Part shown: piece after piece, positions 4,993-21,042 of the stretch
Numbering within the stretch: position 1 is the stretch's first letter
Layout of the letters: every line of letters starts with the position of its first letter
DNA from: a virus
Virus record (IMG/VR): IMGVR_UViG_3300022690_001935
Location: 1-22,985 of that record
DNA length: 22,985 nucleotides
Reading direction: 5' to 3' (one strand)
Notes under the pieces: model-generated
Database searches by the model: none
What the model was told of the DNA's origin: nothing
The model's input: only the letters and a program-made list of their open reading frames with translations
Program-made: the position numbers and the translations under genes

Positions 4993-7395
4993 ATGGCTGG
5001 TTTTACATTTGAAGACCTTGGGAGCCCCGAGTTTTCCAAACTCTCTGAAGGTGATCAGTTTCAGATCCGACGACAAGTATTTAGGGATTTAAAGAAAACC
5101 GATCCTTTGTTTAATAGCATTCCGTTTGCAGAACAAGTCAAGGTATTATTCCCCGATCCCGTTTCGACGGGGGTTGCCAGAGAAAGATTGACGATTGGTG
5201 GGGAATTTAGGGGAGGGGTTGAGGAATTTAAAGGGGCAACAAAAGAAAGGGGGTTTTTAGGGACTCCGGTTGCTAATCTTGCTTTACCTACATTAAGGAT
5301 GGCAGCGTCACCCCTTGCCCCATTGTTCAATTTAGCGACTGCCGCCGGTGAGAAAGTTTCTGAATTTGTGCGACCCCTAGATGTTATAAAATCTAGTCCT
5401 CCATTACTTGAACAATTTTCTGGTCCTGTTCCTCAGCAAACACCGCTCCCGATTCAACCTTCAGATATCTTAGGTGGATTTACAACAGCCGGTGCAGACG
5501 TAGGACTTCCTGGGTTAGTTGGGAAAGGGGCTAGAATCGCGGGAACGGGACTAAGAAAAGTGTTGCCGGTTCGTAGTGAAAAGGTGGCAGGTTTGGCTTC
5601 TGGTTTATCTGAAGATGCAGTAGTAGCACAACAAAGAGCCGTACAGCAAGCAAAGGATATTGGGTTAAGAGAAGCACAACAAGGAGGTGCGTTCGCAGTA
5701 GAAGAACAGGCGGCTCTTGCGGCAAGACAATCTGCAGGAAGCATAGCGCAACGTGAAGCCGTTGAAACTGGTCAGAGGGTTTCTCTCGAACAGGCCAGGC
5801 AAAGAAGTTTATTGGGAGAAAGAGGGCCGAGGACAATACAGGAAGGAATTGCGCCAGGTGCTCCCACAGCAAGAGAAGCTGGGACTAGGTTTCAACAAGA
5901 GATATTCCCAAAAAGAAGAGCAGAGGTTGCTGCGTCCTTTAACAAAAGATACACCGCATTAGAAAAAGAAGCACAGATTATTCCTGCTGAGACGGCAAAT
6001 TTTGAAGTAGCCCTGAATCAGATTATAGAGGAGCCGGGTATCTTAAAAGGCGTTCTTCCAACGAAAGCTGAGTCAATTGCTAACCGGGCATTAAGAGGTA
6101 TTGAAGAGGCTAGAGAAGAGATTACACCCATTAGTGGGTTTGGGGGTAGTAAGCTCGTTGAGTTACAAGATGATGTGTATCGAAGAATAAGGGATAAACT
6201 ATCAGGTGGCGCCCCCGGACAAGCAGAAACGGTTAGCATAGAAGCCTTTCGAGAAGCAGTAGCTCCAGTTAGGGAAATGGTGACTGGCAAGGATATGGTT
6301 GGTGGAGTTCTGAGACTCAGAACAGCGAAAAGAGCGGCTGGCGATGCTGGGAATAGAAATATGGAAAGACAGTTTCGTGTGCTAGAAAATGCTCTTTTAG
6401 AAGACGTTCAGATTGCTAGTCCTGCCATAAAAGCAAAGTTGGGCGTTATTTCAAATGATTATAGACGAGACTTTGTGGGGCTATTTAGTGCGAAGGCTTT
6501 CCCGCAAAAATTAGTAGAGCGTGTACGAGAAGATGCACAAGAAATAGTTGGTGCGATTATTCAACCCGCTAAATCTCCTCGTCGCGTAGAGGCCATCACG
6601 ACATCCTTTAAAGTTATTAAAGATCCCGCAGATAGACAGCTTTTAACGGGTGCTTGGTTCAGGGGTGGTATTGATGAGGCTGCGAAGACCGGAGAATTTC
6701 AACCAAAGGATTTTATCAAATGGTGGGAGTCATACCTTGATCCCAAGACAGATAATCTAGTATTAAGGACTGCTCTAGGAGAAAAATTCAAACCTACTAA
6801 TGATTTTGTGCGCGAGTTGCGAAGGGCGACACAAGGAAAATTCGATGAAGTGGCAGACGAAGGGATAAGTAATATTTTAAAGACTCGTGCTGCACAATCA
6901 AAAGGAGAGGAGGGCATTCTTAGAGCCGCACAGAAGGTAATTAGTGGGAAACGTGTTCAAGTATCTAAAGAATCAGAAGGTTTAATTGGTGAAGTGATTA
7001 AAACTCGGGATGCTTCATTGAAACAATTACGCGATGAGTTTGATAAAGCAGTAACAGCACTTGGCGGGTCTACAGAAATACCAGCTAGAGCTGGATGGTG
7101 GATGGGACCGTTAATGGTTTTAAGCGGTGTTGGGCGAGTTGTTACGGGGGCGGTTGGGCCGGGAATGATCGGAATCGGTGGCGGCGTAATTGAGGTTATG
7201 GGGCACGCGACAATGATCAAAATGCTAAATACGCTTAAGGGCGGCCAGTTGATGCGTCGGTTTGCCAGATCAGTACCAGGTTCAGTTGAGGCTTTGGCAT
7301 TAGCAAGAGAACTAGAGAATATTGCCCGCAATTTGCCAGAAGAAGGAGGGGGCGAAGGAGTGAACCCATTAGTTGGCCCCCCTTTACTTCCATAA
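4993..7395 (+). CDS. Large putative virion/ejection protein, 800 aa
   Basis: This is the second-largest gene of the window. The N-terminal 200 residues are mixed; residues about 200-300 are Ala/Gln/Glu/Arg-rich and probably coiled coil. The middle is charged and helical, and residues about 690-750 hold Gly-rich hydrophobic stretches (GWWMGPLMVLSGVG, GAVGPGMIGIGGGV) that could insert in a membrane. A long helical body with one amphipathic or membrane-active part fits internal virion proteins that leave the capsid with the DNA in podoviruses. No lytic transglycosylase or peptidase motif is visible. The start ATG has AGGGG about nine bases upstream. It is the last virion-type gene before the lysis cassette. 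Confidence 0.6.
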   Translation: MAGFTFEDLGSPEFSKLSEGDQFQIRRQVFRDLKKTDPLFNSIPFAEQVKVLFPDPVSTGVARERLTIGGEFRGGVEEFKGATKERGFLGTPVANLALPTLRMAASPLAPLFNLATAAGEKVSEFVRPLDVIKSSPPLLEQFSGPVPQQTPLPIQPSDILGGFTTAGADVGLPGLVGKGARIAGTGLRKVLPVRSEKVAGLASGLSEDAVVAQQRAVQQAKDIGLREAQQGGAFAVEEQAALAARQSAGSIAQREAVETGQRVSLEQARQRSLLGERGPRTIQEGIAPGAPTAREAGTRFQQEIFPKRRAEVAASFNKRYTALEKEAQIIPAETANFEVALNQIIEEPGILKGVLPTKAESIANRALRGIEEAREEITPISGFGGSKLVELQDDVYRRIRDKLSGGAPGQAETVSIEAFREAVAPVREMVTGKDMVGGVLRLRTAKRAAGDAGNRNMERQFRVLENALLEDVQIASPAIKAKLGVISNDYRRDFVGLFSAKAFPQKLVERVREDAQEIVGAIIQPAKSPRRVEAITTSFKVIKDPADRQLLTGAWFRGGIDEAAKTGEFQPKDFIKWWESYLDPKTDNLVLRTALGEKFKPTNDFVRELRRATQGKFDEVADEGISNILKTRAAQSKGEEGILRAAQKVISGKRVQVSKESEGLIGEVIKTRDASLKQLRDEFDKAVTALGGSTEIPARAGWWMGPLMVLSGVGRVVTGAVGPGMIGIGGGVIEVMGHATMIKMLNTLKGGQLMRRFARSVPGSVEALALARELENIARNLPEEGGGEGVNPLVGPPLLP

Positions 7396-10101: not shown

Positions 10102-10131
10102 TAGCTTGGGGATGTTGAATCTCATGAGTAA

Positions 10132-10248
10132 GCTGAATCAACGGACGTGTAGGTTCGAATCCTACCTCGGGCTTAAATATGCCCGAGTGGCGGAATTGGC
10201 AGACGCTTTAAGTCCGGTCAAATTTAGATTATTCCCAAGAGACTCAGC
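10132..10248 (+). ncRNA. tRNA-like RNA 1 in permuted order (YrlA-type Y RNA candidate)
   Basis: Order along the RNA: 5' stem strand GCTGAATC (10132-10139); CGGAC (10142-10146); a perfect T-arm GTAGG-TTCGAAT-CCTAC (10149-10165); acceptor strand CTCGGGC (10166-10172); loop TTAAATAT; acceptor strand GCCCGAG (10181-10187, 7/7 pairs); Leu-type D-arm with stem GCG/CGC (10190-10206) and the loop GG; GTCCG (10212-10216, pairs with CGGAC); 3' strand GACTCAGC (10241-10248, 7 of 8 pairs). The 3' half of a tRNA thus precedes the 5' half, the acceptor stem is closed by a loop, and the anticodon arm is replaced by the terminal stem. YrlA bacterial Y RNAs, partners of the ring protein Ro60/Rsr, have this permuted tRNA-like fold. 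No Ro60 gene is visible here and I do not see an unmistakable Ro-binding motif. Confidence 0.7.
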
Positions 10249-10272
10249 ATTGTTGTGGTTGTCGGATCGAAT

Positions 10273-10378
10273 TCCGCTGACAAAGCTTGCGGTAGGCGTG
10301 GGTTCGAATCCCACACGGGCCTCTATATGGCCTGGTAGCTTAGAGGTAGAGCGACTGCAATTAGATTTACGCAGCGGA
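10273..10378 (+). ncRNA. tRNA-like RNA 2 in permuted order (YrlA-type Y RNA candidate)
   Basis: Same plan as its neighbour: outer strand TCCGCTG (10273-10279); TTGCGGT (10287-10293); AGGC; T-arm GTGGG-TTCGAAT-CCCAC (10298-10314); acceptor ACGGGCC (10315-10321); loop TCTATAT; acceptor GGCCTGG (10329-10335; 6 of 7 pairs with one wobble); TA; D-arm GCTT-AGAGGTA-GAGC (10338-10352); ACTGCAA (10354-10360), pairing with TTGCGGT over 7 bp; outer strand CAGCGGA (10372-10378), pairing with TCCGCTG over 7 bp. The D-arm is of the class-I tRNA type, unlike RNA 1. No U33 or anticodon loop can be made from the flanks, so it cannot decode even if the ends were joined; a mimic is more likely than a split tRNA. 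A possible lower helix pairs GTCGGAT (10261-10267, one bulged G) with ATCGAC (10388-10393). Confidence 0.7.
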
Positions 10379-10436
10379 TTAAATGTCATCGACGACTTAA
10401 ATCGCAACAGTACCGTGGAAGACGGTACACCTTGTG
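10379..10436 (+). other. Hairpins between the tRNA-like RNAs and the terminator
   Basis: GTACCGT (10410-10416) and ACGGTAC (10422-10428) form a perfect 7-bp hairpin with loop GGAAG. Upstream, GATT...GTC (10377-10387) can pair with GAC...AATC (10394-10403) with one mismatch and a bulge. These may be a third structured part of the same transcript or processing signals. No open frame of note is present. Confidence 0.5.
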
Positions 10437-10470
10437 GGTAGGGGGGACGGATATTCCCCCCTACCTTTTT
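10437..10470 (+). terminator. Strong intrinsic terminator
   Basis: GGTAGGGGGG (10437-10446) pairs perfectly with CCCCCCTACC (10456-10465) across a 9-base loop, followed directly by TTTTT (10466-10470). It ends the unit that begins at the promoter at 9299. Confidence 0.9.
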
Positions 10471-10477
10471 ATAGATT

Positions 10478-10657
10478 ATGGAAAACATCACAAAACGATT
10501 GATTGAAGAATTTGGCGTTAAGAAGGAAATTATTGCTCTGCGACTCAAAGCAAGTATTCGGAGTGTAGAGAGATGGCATAACGATGGAGTACCTTTCCAT
10601 TTTTATCAGGTACAACTTGAACGGATGCTTGAAAAAGAAATGGGGAAGAGGGCATGA
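10478..10657 (+). CDS. Small helix-turn-helix regulator, 59 aa
   Basis: The ATG at 10478 lies eight bases after the terminator's T-run. The central sequence IALRLKASIRSVERWHNDG is a good helix-turn-helix: a first helix, a turn, and a recognition helix starting at SIRSVERW, followed by GVPFHF as in MerR/XRE-like small phage repressors. It is short, so it may bind DNA as a dimer. The promoter at 9299 with its paired direct repeats is one conceivable target, though nothing in the sequence proves it. Its TGA overlaps the next ATG. Confidence 0.6.
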   Translation: MENITKRLIEEFGVKKEIIALRLKASIRSVERWHNDGVPFHFYQVQLERMLEKEMGKRA

Positions 10658-10794
10658 CCCCCGTCCCTGACCCAGGCTGGTATTCCCTGAAATGTCGTTG
10701 TGAGTGTGGCTGCGATACAGAGACGGGGCCAACAATGAGACGCAGGGAGTACATTTGTGAGTATTGTGAGGAAGGGAAGTGTCAAAATGATTGA
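10654..10794 (+). CDS. Cys-rich zinc-binding microprotein, 46 aa
   Basis: Coupled by ATGA to the HTH gene. Cysteines occur as CRCECGC in the first half and CEYCEEGKC near the end, enough for one or two zinc sites. No known family. The stop is downstream of the start of the next tiny gene, which overlaps it by eight bases. Confidence 0.5.
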   Translation: MTPVPDPGWYSLKCRCECGCDTETGPTMRRREYICEYCEEGKCQND

Positions 10795-10867
10795 CTGGAT
10801 AGATGTATTATTTATTATCTGTCAGATCACAATGATGGTCATTTATCTGGAGGTTAAACCGTATTAA
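10787..10867 (+). CDS. 26-aa single-membrane-segment peptide
   Basis: ATG to TAA, product MIDWIDVLFIICQITMMVIY plus a short charged end (LEVKPY): one hydrophobic helix. Only overlap with the upstream gene and the hydrophobic content support it, so the call is weak. Confidence 0.35.
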   Translation: MIDWIDVLFIICQITMMVIYLEVKPY

Positions 10868-10872
10868 CAACT

Positions 10873-11053
10873 TGACTCGCTGCGGTGTGGAAGGACACAC
10901 ACTACGATAGTGTTGCTACCCCCTGAGACTCAATCGGGGCTATCGAGGAACATACACACGCCTTTATGTTGCCTAGGCAACGGCATGAAGTTGGTGGTAT
11001 TTGACGCCAGAGGAGAGAGTAGCCAGTCGGTATCGAATCCGACCAGCGGGTCA
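10873..11053 (+). ncRNA. Structured leader RNA with a tRNA-like T-arm
   Basis: TGACTCGCTG (10873-10882) pairs with CAGCGGGTCA (11044-11053) over 10 bp with one wobble and closes a domain of 181 bases. Inside are hairpins GTGTG/CACAC (10885-10900) and ACTA/TAGT (10901-10911). A stem GCTAC/GTAGC (10915-10919 with 11019-11023) encloses CCCC/GGGG and GTTGC-CTAG-GCAAC. Next to the closing stem lies a T-arm-like hairpin GTCGG-TATCGAAT-CCGAC (11026-11043). The order acceptor, hairpins, large insert, T-arm, acceptor recalls tRNA or tmRNA, but no CCA, tag frame or known tmRNA core is seen. It could be a free RNA or the leader of the gene at 11077. No protein gene is visible in this gap. Confidence 0.6.
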
Positions 11054-11076
11054 GGATAGCTGTCGAGAGGAATAGT

Positions 11077-11268
11077 ATGTCAGAAAAAGCTCCTGAAAAA
11101 GACGGACAATTTATACAGATTGCAGCAGCCGGTATAAAGGATGGATATACCTTGCTGTACGCTCTCGATAATAGAGGAATAGTCTGGCTCTACACAGAAG
11201 GAGATAAGGGTCGATATTGGGACCGTCTTGAAGATTCAAGGGAGCAGCCAGTGAGTAAGGATAATTAA
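11077..11268 (+). CDS. Small hypothetical protein, 63 aa
   Basis: GAGAGGAA precedes the ATG. The middle (FIQIAAAG, then LLYALDNRGIVWLYTEGD, then W-D-RLED) is a strand-rich pattern seen in small phage proteins that resemble one blade of a beta-propeller; function unknown. It is the first gene after the structured leader. Confidence 0.6.
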   Translation: MSEKAPEKDGQFIQIAAAGIKDGYTLLYALDNRGIVWLYTEGDKGRYWDRLEDSREQPVSKDN

Positions 11269-11280
11269 AAGGAGGTAGCT

Positions 11281-11751
11281 ATGTCTGATCCAACAGTAGG
11301 AATAGATGAGGGGCACCCAGCACCTGAATATCAACTCAACCAACTCTTCGCTCAGTACGCAGTCCTGTGTACCGACAAGGACCAGAAGGAAATGGAATTA
11401 GATGCTATCGACGCGGCTATGGCTCCTATCGAAGAACAGATTAAGGCTCTAATGATTGAACGTGAATACCACAGCATTGACCATGACGGCGAGAAATATA
11501 CGTTGGCCGTGATTGAGCGGCCATCTATCATTGCATTGACTAGGGGTGAGTTCATGGGCTGGCTCGAAGCAAACGGGGAGTATGGCATTGTCCAGACCGA
11601 TTATGTTAATTCCAATACCTTATGGGGTTGGCGGAATAATTTAGATGAAGTCAAGAAAGAAGAATTGTCGGCTTTGGGATACCTGAAAACCAATGAGCAG
11701 ATTCAGCTACGCAGATCGAAGGGATATAAGCGGAGTAGGAAGAAAAAATGA
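11281..11751 (+). CDS. Hypothetical protein with coiled-coil N-terminus, 156 aa
   Basis: AAGGAGGT at 11270-11277 gives a good start. Residues about 25-65 are a charged helix (KDQKEMELDAIDAAMAPIEE). The second half holds a strand/Trp-rich part (EFMGWLEANGEYG, NTLWGWRNNL) and ends with a basic tail RSKGYKRSRKKK that may bind nucleic acid. The helical part resembles accessory proteins that form coiled coils with DNA enzymes, but I cannot name a family. It is coupled by ATGA to the small membrane protein downstream. Confidence 0.6.
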   Translation: MSDPTVGIDEGHPAPEYQLNQLFAQYAVLCTDKDQKEMELDAIDAAMAPIEEQIKALMIEREYHSIDHDGEKYTLAVIERPSIIALTRGEFMGWLEANGEYGIVQTDYVNSNTLWGWRNNLDEVKKEELSALGYLKTNEQIQLRRSKGYKRSRKKK

Positions 11752-11876
11752 ATGATTTTTGGCGACCTATGTGCTTAGCCATGCTTCTTATGGGAGGAGT
11801 TATCTTGGTTGCTCATTTTAATGTTTTGCTTGGGACAATATGCTTGGGTTTTTATGTTGCGCTACAAAATAATTAA
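11748..11876 (+). CDS. 42-aa membrane microprotein
   Basis: Overlaps the previous stop (ATGA). The product MNDFWRPMCLAMLLMGGVIL continues hydrophobic to LQNN, forming one or two membrane helices. Function unknown. Its TAA is followed at once by the second structured leader. Confidence 0.45.
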   Translation: MNDFWRPMCLAMLLMGGVILVAHFNVLLGTICLGFYVALQNN

Positions 11877-11882
11877 CCAACT

Positions 11883-11949
11883 TGACTCGCCGCGCTGGTG
11901 CTGGTCTGAGGATTGAAAAGACTGGAAGAAGCCGCTGGCCGGCGGGTCA
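11883..11949 (+). ncRNA. Second structured leader sharing the 10-bp closing stem
   Basis: TGACTCGCCG (11883-11892) pairs with CGGCGGGTCA (11940-11949). Compared with the leader at 10873 the inner T-A pair has become C-G, a compensatory change, and the flanks are alike (TTAAC(C)AACT before; GGATA after). The inside is only 47 bases, with GTCT/AGAC (11904-11907 with 11919-11922). It ends 24 bases before the next ATG, so it is probably part of that gene's leader. Confidence 0.55.
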
Positions 11950-11973
11950 GGATAATAAGGGAGGGACTTGGGG

Positions 11974-12240
11974 ATGCCATATAAATTCCGACAATTCCAT
12001 ATACCGGACAGAATGATGCCGGGGATAAAGCGGTACTTAGAACAGGGTATTGAACCGGGCGATTTTCTGGTAGCGGTTATTTGCAATAATTTACATGGAG
12101 CTATTGGCCAAGCGGATGACGAGAATCTGGCAAACCTTCCCGCCTTCGTTGGATATTTTTACAATGAAACTCCTCGTGGCTGTTGGGGGTCACAGGAGAT
12201 AATGGAGAAATGGATAGCGAAATTTAAGGAGGCCTTATGA
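11974..12240 (+). CDS. Conserved small phage protein, 88 aa
   Basis: The ATG at 11974 follows GGGAGGG; a TTG six bases earlier is less likely. The sequence (YKFRQFHIPDRMMPGIKRYL, then PGDFLVAVICNN, then ENLANLPAFVGYFYNE and CWGS) matches a small protein family I know from phages and prophages with no known role. It is coupled by ATGA to the next gene. Confidence 0.65.
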   Translation: MPYKFRQFHIPDRMMPGIKRYLEQGIEPGDFLVAVICNNLHGAIGQADDENLANLPAFVGYFYNETPRGCWGSQEIMEKWIAKFKEAL

Positions 12241-12386
12241 GCGACTGCGGCTGCACATGCCATACGGATCAATATCCACGGTACCAAGCAAGGGCAGAAA
12301 TTCGCGTGTGCGATGACTGCAAATCAGAGCCGTGCGAGACGGTGTTGGAGGAACAGAGGATGGAAGTAGCGGACAAGGAGGACTAA
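12237..12386 (+). CDS. Cys-rich zinc-binding microprotein, 49 aa
   Basis: Overlaps the previous stop (ATGA). Cysteines fall as CGCTC near the N-terminus and CDDCKSEPC in the middle, a likely zinc knuckle; the C-terminal part is acidic. Unknown function. AAGGAGG inside its end serves as ribosome site for the next gene. Confidence 0.5.
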   Translation: MSDCGCTCHTDQYPRYQARAEIRVCDDCKSEPCETVLEEQRMEVADKED

Positions 12387-12388
12387 TC

Positions 12389-12616
12389 ATGGAAAGTATC
12401 CAATCTATGAACAGACAACAAAGGGAAAATCTTGAATCTATACAAAAACAGCAGATGAAAACTCAGGTATTACTATTCTTCGATGTCTATAATGCAGCAT
12501 TGAAGTTAGGTAATGAATTGCCCAGAGAACTATGGGAACCAATTAATGAAGTAGTGAGATATCGCCAGAGAGAAAATCTGGCAGATGAAGATGAGTTTTT
12601 AATCGAGGAGGACTAA
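12389..12616 (+). CDS. Small helical hypothetical protein, 75 aa
   Basis: I choose the ATG at 12389 because AAGGAGG lies seven bases upstream; the frame is open further back but reads through the Cys-rich gene. The product is Gln/Glu-rich and helical, with an acidic end (ADEDEFLIEED). No family recognised. Confidence 0.55.
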   Translation: MESIQSMNRQQRENLESIQKQQMKTQVLLFFDVYNAALKLGNELPRELWEPINEVVRYRQRENLADEDEFLIEED

Positions 12617-12618
12617 CC

Positions 12619-12807
12619 ATGGCTTGGTCTTGCTGGCATAAGTGGGCGAAATGGGAAAAGTATGAGATGAAGTATTTATTTGTGCCAGGAGTCCGTTACC
12701 CCGAAAAAGTTCAAGGTAAAGAGTTTAATTGTATAGATTTGAGACAGAGGCGACAGTGTGAAAAGTGCGGCAGATATGAAGACGAACTACTTAGAGGAGG
12801 AAACTAA
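12619..12807 (+). CDS. Zinc-ribbon-like small protein, 62 aa
   Basis: GAGGAGG precedes the ATG. The pattern CWHKWAKWEKYEM at the start and RRQCEKCGRYED near the end is one I know from many small phage proteins: Cys/His and Trp at the front, CxxC at the back, probably one zinc. Function unknown. It is followed directly by the SSB-like gene. Confidence 0.6.
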   Translation: MAWSCWHKWAKWEKYEMKYLFVPGVRYPEKVQGKEFNCIDLRQRRQCEKCGRYEDELLRGGN

Positions 12808-12809
12808 TC

Positions 12810-13718
12810 ATGGCAACCAAAGAAAAAGAGCTAGTTAAGCAGGAAGCCCCCCAACTCCCGGCGATACCGGACCTAAAAAAGCTAAAGGAGGTCTTTGAAT
12901 CGAATTTCGAGGGGATAACTCCATCTTTCGAGGTTATCAAAATACCAACCGGGGGAAACTTATTTTGGACGGTGCCTACAGAGGAAGGAGAAGATAGCCA
13001 AAAAGAGCTAGTCGGGGTTATTATAGATCACTATACAGTTAGGGCCTTTTGGCCAGGGGCATATTCTGGAGGGAATAGTCCGCCCACTTGCTCTAGTTTT
13101 GATGGAAGGCAAGGTAGTTTGCCTCGTAATCAGGACGGAGAGTTTGGAGAATGTGGGTCTCATCTTAAAGATTCGGACCCGCATAAATGTAAGTGGGCAA
13201 AGTTTGGAACTGCAACTAAGCCCGATGGAGGTCCAGGCCGAGGACAGGCTTGCAAGCTAAAGCATAGAGTGTATTTACTTCCTTTGGGTAAGTCTTATTT
13301 CCCTTATCTCATTCCATTATCTGTCATGTCGGCTACCAAGAAATATGAAGGGAGCATTTCTACTTATGTCGTTAAACTCGGAGGGCAATTAAAAAGACTT
13401 TGTGATGTAAAAACTCGGGTAAAGCTCATAGGAGACACTAATTCTGATGGCTTAGACTATAGCAAGGCTCAGTTTTTCGAAGTGTTAGGTGGTTTGACGA
13501 AAGAAGAAAAAGAGATGACTACGTTTTTGGGAGTTCAGCTTAAATCGGCCATGAGGTCTCGGCCTTTTGAGGCTGAAGAATTTGATACTGAGGTAGGACA
13601 GCCAGAAACTCGGGGCACCGAGCAACGAGAGGCGGATAGGGCTGAGGACGACTCGCCGGCAGATAGCAGAGGGCCGGACCCGTGGGAGAAAAAGGGGAAG
13701 GATGACATTCCATTCTAA
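12810..13718 (+). CDS. SSB-type single-stranded DNA-binding protein with DDIPF tail
   Basis: 302 aa with GAGGAGG upstream. Residues about 60-200 contain strands and a Cys cluster (CSSFDG, GECGSH, HKCKW, GQACKLKHRVYLLPLG) that suggests an OB-type core with a zinc site, as in several phage SSB-like proteins. The last 50 residues are acidic and disordered and end exactly in DDIPF (298-302), the C-terminal tail of bacterial SSB that docks partners such as primase, helicases and exonucleases. The tail makes the call strong although the core is not classic SSB. Neighbouring replication genes fit. It may recruit host SSB partners to phage DNA. Confidence 0.75.
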   Translation: MATKEKELVKQEAPQLPAIPDLKKLKEVFESNFEGITPSFEVIKIPTGGNLFWTVPTEEGEDSQKELVGVIIDHYTVRAFWPGAYSGGNSPPTCSSFDGRQGSLPRNQDGEFGECGSHLKDSDPHKCKWAKFGTATKPDGGPGRGQACKLKHRVYLLPLGKSYFPYLIPLSVMSATKKYEGSISTYVVKLGGQLKRLCDVKTRVKLIGDTNSDGLDYSKAQFFEVLGGLTKEEKEMTTFLGVQLKSAMRSRPFEAEEFDTEVGQPETRGTEQREADRAEDDSPADSRGPDPWEKKGKDDIPF

Positions 13719-13731
13719 GAAGGAGCCTATG

Positions 13732-13998
13732 ATGCAAAGGCGCTGCGATTGTAAAGAGGGTAAATTTACGAAGGATGGTCTTGAAATTGTCATTGGATTA
13801 AATGTCCACGATTGTCAATATATTGCTCAACGCAACGCATTAATCCATGAGGCGGCGGAGTTGGCTGATGGTAAATATAAAATTAGAGATTCGGCAATAG
13901 AGCCCTCGTGGTGGGATGGTAAGCCTGTAAAAGTCAATCTCTGGTCGCGGGAATTCCTGGCTCAGATGAATAAGCTGGTACGTGGTCTAGGGGAATAA
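13732..13998 (+). CDS. Hypothetical protein, 88 aa
   Basis: The frame opens at 13702 inside the SSB-like gene, but AGGAG at 13721-13725 lies six bases before the second ATG of an ATGATG pair, so I start at 13732. The product begins MQRRCDCKEG and has strand and helix parts with Trp-rich PSWWDGKP near the end. No family recognised. Confidence 0.5.
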   Translation: MQRRCDCKEGKFTKDGLEIVIGLNVHDCQYIAQRNALIHEAAELADGKYKIRDSAIEPSWWDGKPVKVNLWSREFLAQMNKLVRGLGE

Positions 13999-14001
13999 GT
14001 A

Positions 14002-14202
14002 ATGCCTAAGCCCTTAAACGAAATGACCAATGAAGAGTTGTTTGAAAAGTGGGAAAAAGATGCGAAGGAAAATACAGAGAAGATAAATGAAATCAATCGT
14101 CGTCTTTTAACCCGTACAAGGGAGACTGTTCTTCTTTTGAAAAGAATATGCCAACACTTAGGGCTTAGTCAAGATACTGCGGATATCAGGCAGGAACGAT
14201 GA
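14002..14202 (+). CDS. Small coiled-coil protein, 66 aa
   Basis: Almost entirely helical and charged (EELFEKWEKDAKENTEKINE), with heptad-like Leu/Ile spacing. It is coupled by ATGA to the next microprotein. No function can be assigned. Confidence 0.55.
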   Translation: MPKPLNEMTNEELFEKWEKDAKENTEKINEINRRLLTRTRETVLLLKRICQHLGLSQDTADIRQER

Positions 14203-20911: not shown

Positions 20912-21002
20912 AATGGAGGCGATGCCTATATAGCGATGGCCTTGCGGGTGCGCACTTTTCGAGGCGCGTAAGTCTATATGGTAGTTGACCATCGTCTCCA
21001 TT
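20912..21002 (+). ncRNA. Long hairpin RNA between the primase region and 21043
   Basis: AATGGAGGCGATG (20912-20924) pairs with CATCGTCTCCATT (20990-21002) over 13 bp with one wobble. Next, CC(T)ATATAG (20925-20933) pairs with CTATATGG (20974-20981) over 8 bp with one bulged T. The tip is GC-rich with short stems such as ACTT/AAGT. Right after it lies a tandem 9-base repeat CATTGACTC (20999-21007, 21008-21016). The 151-base gap has no protein gene. It may be a free small RNA or the leader of the gene at 21043. Confidence 0.6.
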
Positions 21003-21042
21003 GACTCCATTGACTCGGCCAGCGGGCAGATTAGGAGGGGAT

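Follow-up and report, generated by a model that had tools for sequence, protein, structure and literature searches.

Two intergenic segments of the virus record IMGVR_UViG_3300022690_001935 were found to share a 12-bp closing stem, here called P1, which is also present at matching operon junctions of three other viral contigs. The record was analysed over a stretch of 22,985 bases, which we call the window, and the two elements within it are W1 (10871-11055) and W2 (11881-11951). Across the four genomes or contigs the structure recurs with a conserved P1 sequence and nearly constant placement, which points to a repeated gene-control RNA that has not previously been described; no Rfam family matched it. 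Our best reading, held tentatively, is that each element is a cis-acting leader in which P1 would serve as the docking site for a sequence-specific factor controlling translation of the next gene.

Two elements with a common closing stem

W1 opens with the 5' arm of P1, CTTGACTCGCTG (10871-10882), which starts 3 nt past the stop codon at 10865-10867, and closes with the 3' arm, CAGCGGGTCAGG (11044-11055). The 161 nt enclosed by these arms (10883-11043) were predicted by folding to be multi-branched, and the last hairpin of this inside (11027-11043, GTCGG..CCGAC) carries a T-arm-like 8-nt loop, TATCGAAT, and abuts P1. A linker (11056-11076) bearing the Shine-Dalgarno-like sequence GAGAGGAA then leads to the ATG at 11077. 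In W2 the arms CTTGACTCGCCG (11881-11892) and CGGCGGGTCAGG (11940-11951) enclose 47 nt (11893-11939) made up of two stacked helices, P2 and P3, which covary among orthologues, and the linker to the ATG at 11974 (11952-11973) contains the Shine-Dalgarno sequence AAGGGAGGG. All of these features lie on the + strand, and P1 is present in both predicted folds. The first-pass annotation had proposed a shared closing stem of 10 bp, and the shared stem stands but its length does not, since an outer C-G and a U-G pair also belong to the stem. Its coordinates, arm sequences, inside lengths and flanks were otherwise re-read as given, and so was the placement, with upstream stop codons ending at 10867 and 11876 (3 and 4 nt before the stem) and ATG codons 23 and 24 nt past the 3' ends of the 10-bp version.

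A single stem of the length of P1 is no proof of anything; the window contains 10 stems of 12 bp with such size and spacing, compared to 2.6 +/- 2.1 in dinucleotide shuffles. The part that is not due to chance is the sharing. On the 5' side W1 and W2 share 15 of 16 bases, and 15 of 18 are shared on their 3' side, with the order kept, and the conserved flanks of P1 are CAA before the stem and ATAA after it. A sliding local-folding scan placed W2 third of 763 in the window (z -3.85), and the inside of W1 by itself was no more stable than its shuffles (z -0.74).

Both elements lie in an operon at 10478-14202, in which, by our reading of the open frames, the genes overlap or are separated by no more than about 12 nt, except at the gaps 10868-11076 and 11877-11973. 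W1 and W2 fill these, the only two gaps of the operon over about 12 nt. On the 3' side of W1 is a gene for a 63-aa protein (11077-11268, + strand), a relative of which stands after the long-type element of contig G002 described below. Between W1 and W2 is a gene for a DUF7307 (Pam3 gp33-like) protein (11281-11751, + strand), then a 42-aa hydrophobic small ORF (11748-11876, + strand) that ends 4 nt before W2, and W2 is in turn followed by a gene at 11974-12240 (+ strand). The C-terminus of the DUF7307 protein is invariant and basic (YKR.RKKK), and a sequence search with this protein returned no known RNA-binding relative and no solved relative. A short cysteine-rich protein (e.g. WYSLKCRCECGCD..YICEYCEEGKCQ) is encoded at 10654-10794 of the window, shortly upstream of the long-type element, and its homologues in L049, L050 and L026 give it the same upstream place in all four contigs.

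Copies in related contigs and support for pairing

Relatives were brought in by searches with the DUF7307 protein and with arm patterns, and comprise G001 (65 kb; L049, L051, L067-L070), G002 (10.5 kb; L050, L052) and G003 (5.7 kb; L026). Eight copies were counted, two in the window, three in G001, two in G002 and one in G003, a number that rests on few independent lineages, G001 and G002 being named from the same metagenome. The insides range from 46 to 166 nt over all copies and fall into types by position: long types (100-166 nt) precede the DUF7307 gene or the small gene in front of it, and short types (46-48 nt) follow the DUF7307 gene. The third G001 copy has an 89-nt inside and is located behind an AP2/HNH endonuclease gene, itself behind a primase gene, and the G003 contig is without a short-type copy. 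Where G001 has this full third element, a by-eye alignment placed a collapsed remnant in the window, TTGACTCGGCCAGCGGGCAGATTAG (21010-21034, + strand), with no inside left. Because the same junctions are occupied in diverged phages, the copies are not freshly mobile.

A 15-base pattern of the 5' arm matched 47 stretches in viral contigs, and after screening for the 3' arm and context one true copy was retained, that of L026 (G003). A candidate in L031 has both arms, but the flanks are missing and it resembles coding sequence, and it was set aside. Single-gap arm patterns returned only the two known relatives. The DUF7307 protein, used as a query, was matched at three viral loci and nowhere in genome contigs or phage records. 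Neither the DUF7307 gene nor the stem was present in four other contigs with the peptide YVNSNTLW or in three genome contigs with the 3'-arm pattern, and BLAST comparison of phage records with the region, or with one element at a time, yielded short chance matches only. In G003, roughly 145 bases recur in inverted orientation at the two ends of L026 (from 1 to about 145 and from about 5557 to 5701), which is probably an artefact of assembly, and the element lies away from them.

Pairing was not lost in the relatives, as 95 of the 96 P1 cells over the eight copies are paired. The changes in P1 are mostly to or from G-U, and a single pair, running through U-A, U-G and C-G, is the only two-sided change in the closing stem. 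This is the T-A to C-G change on which the first-pass annotation had relied; it is real, and a U-G intermediate was found in an orthologue (among the short types, C-G in the window, U-G in G001 and U-A in G002). Six of the seven changes in P1 keep a pair, with p about 0.09 for random transitions, and the covariation of P1 alone is weak and only suggestive. On sequence comparison the inner helices of the short type offer stronger covariation evidence than P1: RNAalifold, applied to an unguided alignment of the three short-type orthologues, gave 26 pairs, 5 of them compensatory. In hand-aligned long types, one pair of the last hairpin is U-A, U-G and C-G across W1, G003 and G001, and one pair of the first hairpin changes from U-A to C-G between G001 and G003.

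A covariance search for further copies had been proposed with the original observation, and was run. A model built on the three short types alone recovered two long-type copies, those of G001 and G002, at E-values of 2.7e-4 and 4.6e-4; the third G001 copy came out at 1.4, and W1 and the G003 copy, with their much longer insides, were unreported by the model. The stem of a weak covariance-model match in L067 at 15521 (E 0.0034) contains mismatches, and this match was not counted as a copy.

Whole elements were more stable than their shuffles (z -1.7 to -6.1), whereas the insides alone were not clearly so (z -0.2 to -2.2). The sequence of P1 is kept while the insides differ between types and between phages, which suggests recognition by sequence besides pairing. 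Some of this conservation may come from common descent or gene conversion, the four contigs being related. Position 7 of P1 is uniform within each genome (T,T in the window; C,C,C in G001; C,C in G002; T in G003), as expected if one factor were shared by all copies of a genome, although gene conversion could also produce such agreement.

Placement at gene starts and candidate functions

In seven of the eight copies the stop codon of the upstream gene is 3-11 nt from P1, and in the G003 copy the longest upstream frame continues to a UGA within P1. The distance from P1 to the next start codon is likewise 18-23 nt in seven copies, with a Shine-Dalgarno sequence in between, the exception being the third G001 copy, in which the next ATG is 9 nt away and no clear Shine-Dalgarno sequence precedes it. 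In the reading that we favour, the element would be a cis-acting RNA within a polycistronic phage mRNA, extending from after one stop codon to before the next Shine-Dalgarno sequence. P1 and its flanks would dock a trans-acting factor that recognises their sequence, in the simplest case an RNA-binding protein of the phage. Located where the ribosome footprint begins on its 5' side, P1 would set the level of translation of the next gene, with the insides acting as a replaceable scaffold or as secondary modules. We infer both the existence of the factor and translation as the regulated step. The DUF7307 protein, encoded between elements and having an invariant basic tail, can be named as an autoregulator only speculatively.

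Phage translational operators, such as those bound by coat proteins or replication proteins, are compact hairpins that overlap the start region. A paired, sequence-conserved stem near the ribosome-binding site, the feature of a protein-bound operator of this kind, was found here, with the spacing exception of the third G001 copy, and several copies would likewise form a small regulon. The elements differ from these operators in that their 12-bp stem encloses 46-166 nt and stops short of the Shine-Dalgarno sequence. If one factor reads P1 at several gene starts, this uncultivated phage lineage would possess a small post-transcriptional regulon, and the fixed stem set against fast-changing insides would show directly which part functions. 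The first-pass annotation had spoken of a repeated regulatory RNA, perhaps an antiterminator, a protein-binding site or a processing stem. The repeated, structured intergenic RNA is borne out by eight copies, compensatory pairs and constant placement; an antiterminator is unlikely, and of the two other suggestions, both possible, we favour the protein-binding site.

A role in processing is conceivable, though on balance we doubt it. The stems would then be punctuation marks at which RNase III, or a different nuclease specific for double strands, cleaves the mRNA and so trims or stabilises its DUF7307 segment on both sides, much as RNase III sites in the early mRNA of phage T7 form stems between the cistrons of an operon. 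The position between cistrons, with copies flanking the DUF7307 gene on both sides, fits such a role, as does the short type, whose 26 pairs form a long and nearly continuous helix. In the long types, however, P1 gives just 12 bp ahead of a branching inside, without a long continuous helix, and the stem sequence is conserved here, unlike at the T7 sites, although RNase III requires no conserved sequence.

It is unlikely, in our estimation, that P1 acts as a translational bridge, joining the upstream stop codon to the downstream Shine-Dalgarno sequence so that reinitiation or translational coupling could operate over an insert of any length. Several features would suit a bridge: a stop codon that shortly precedes the stem (seven of eight copies), the Shine-Dalgarno sequence directly behind the stem, the free inside length, and genes that overlap or are closely spaced (within about 12 nt) at the other junctions of the operon. 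Against it, part of the 5' arm would be covered by the terminating ribosome, and neither the retention of inserts nor the conserved sequence of P1 would be explained. Processing and bridging thus both account for the placement of the elements and not for their sequence conservation, which the docking of a sequence-specific factor would accommodate.

tRNA-like insides and inverted-repeat sites

The T-arm-like loop of W1 is not the only tRNA-like feature of the insides. The third G001 copy and the G002 long type contain exact T-arm motifs (5 bp with a TTCRANY loop), expected 0.07 times per 65-kb strand, and the last hairpin of the inside meets P1 in the way that the T-arm of a tRNA meets the acceptor stem. 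Bacterial Y RNAs such as YrlA (RF02553) are similar in plan, a conserved terminal stem closing a variable body, with possible tRNA-like modules. A novel, modular class of phage leader RNAs that would use such a plan in cis to control genes, with a conserved terminal stem recognised by a single factor and exchangeable cargo (plain hairpins or tRNA-like modules) at several junctions within a genome, is imaginable but seems to us rather unlikely. Less credible again is that the insides themselves are functional small RNAs with tRNA-like domains, released or within the mRNA, for which P1 would be the common Y-RNA-like terminal stem. The exact motifs, the abutting hairpin and two YrlA-like RNAs located 500 nt upstream would agree with this, but the short type has no T-arm, that of W1 is imperfect, and the insides are neither conserved between phages nor clearly more stable than shuffles. 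ARAGORN found no tRNA and no complete tRNA or tmRNA cloverleaf over the elements. Rfam gave no match in the window at the gathering threshold and nothing over the elements at a permissive one (E up to 5), and a lone tmRNA match the size of a T-arm was obtained in the third G001 copy. The YrlA model did not match W1 or W2 even at a permissive threshold. The elements differ from YrlA in having no model match and in lying inside mRNA at gene junctions. No TROVE (Ro60) gene was found in the four contigs, which are possibly fragments, and a host protein could serve instead.

The two YrlA-like RNAs are arranged in tandem at 10125-10238 and 10273-10381 of the window and scored 32.9 and 19.9 bits (Rfam cut-off 69), with a model that also fires on neighbouring tRNA genes in control genomes. 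The whole RNA spans about 10110-10467 and has a counterpart in G001 at 54514-54772. The order of parts is permuted, with a T-arm and acceptor 3' strand, 7-8 nt, and then the acceptor 5' strand and D-arm, and in the first acceptor stem a comparison of the window with G001 shows two compensatory pairs. ARAGORN detected no tRNA at 10125-10381, and a strong terminator-like hairpin (10436-10466) follows these RNAs.

That the arms are DNA sites, either operator half-sites or the ends of a mobile element, is very improbable. They are near-perfect inverted repeats flanking variable inserts, the third G001 copy has an AP2/HNH endonuclease gene as its neighbour, and in cluster K mycobacteriophages the similar ESAS repeats have been interpreted as DNA sites. 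However, the spacing of the arms varies from 46 to 166 nt, the departures from symmetry are G-U pairs, which fit an RNA and not a DNA palindrome, and the inner helices covary. These features weigh against the protein-bound DNA sites that had been named at the outset as a possible refutation, and judged on the sequences the elements probably act as RNA, with a DNA palindrome disfavoured.

The ESAS are imperfect inverted repeats of 17 bp whose spacers are mostly 4-13 bp long; they adjoin a 13-bp SAS repeat, GGGATAGGAGCCC, located 3-7 bp before the start codon, and their authors found little support for RNA pairing (PMC3203893). Among the literature accessible for comparison they are the nearest described pattern, being multi-copy inverted repeats with a variable spacer, situated in larger intergenic gaps just upstream of the starts of non-structural phage genes. 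The elements described here have 12-bp arms, spacers of 46-166 nt and supported pairing, and reading of the linkers at 11056-11076 and 11952-11973 showed the SAS repeat to be absent from them. Since spacer length, sequence and pairing evidence all differ, the elements are not ESAS. If the elements do act as RNA, they are a warning that what has elsewhere been read as a DNA site, an inverted repeat close to a phage start codon, can be an RNA element.

Signals to RNA polymerase are highly unlikely: a structured nascent RNA within an early-type phage operon would suit antitermination of the put kind, but the copies are at internal gene junctions, have no two-stem-loop architecture and have no recognisable promoter beside them, promoter-like matches being at chance level. 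The put sites of phage HK022 are about 70 nt long and consist of two stem-loops downstream of the early promoters (PMC9378689). The elements resemble them as repeated, cis-acting structured phage RNAs, with two similar copies per genome in HK022; put acts on RNA polymerase and suppresses downstream pausing and termination, whereas the folds obtained here give one closing stem around a variable inside, with no two adjacent stem-loops, at internal junctions before a Shine-Dalgarno sequence. TTGAC in the 5' arm was considered as part of a promoter and dropped, as no -10 box follows.

Behind the primase gene a second kind of closed-stem element was observed, in the window at 20913-21001 (AATGGAGGCGATG..CATCGTCTCCATT, with an inside of 65 nt or so) and in G001 at about 3388-3451 of L067 (GGAGGCGA..TCGTCTCC), where the inside is different from that of the window. 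In G001 the free-standing AP2/HNH endonuclease gene (L067 3476-4015) lies between this element and the third P1 element, and it is absent from the corresponding place in the window. The elements of the second kind are each followed by TTGACTC or TTGACCC, a T/C difference that is the same as in the P1 of that genome.
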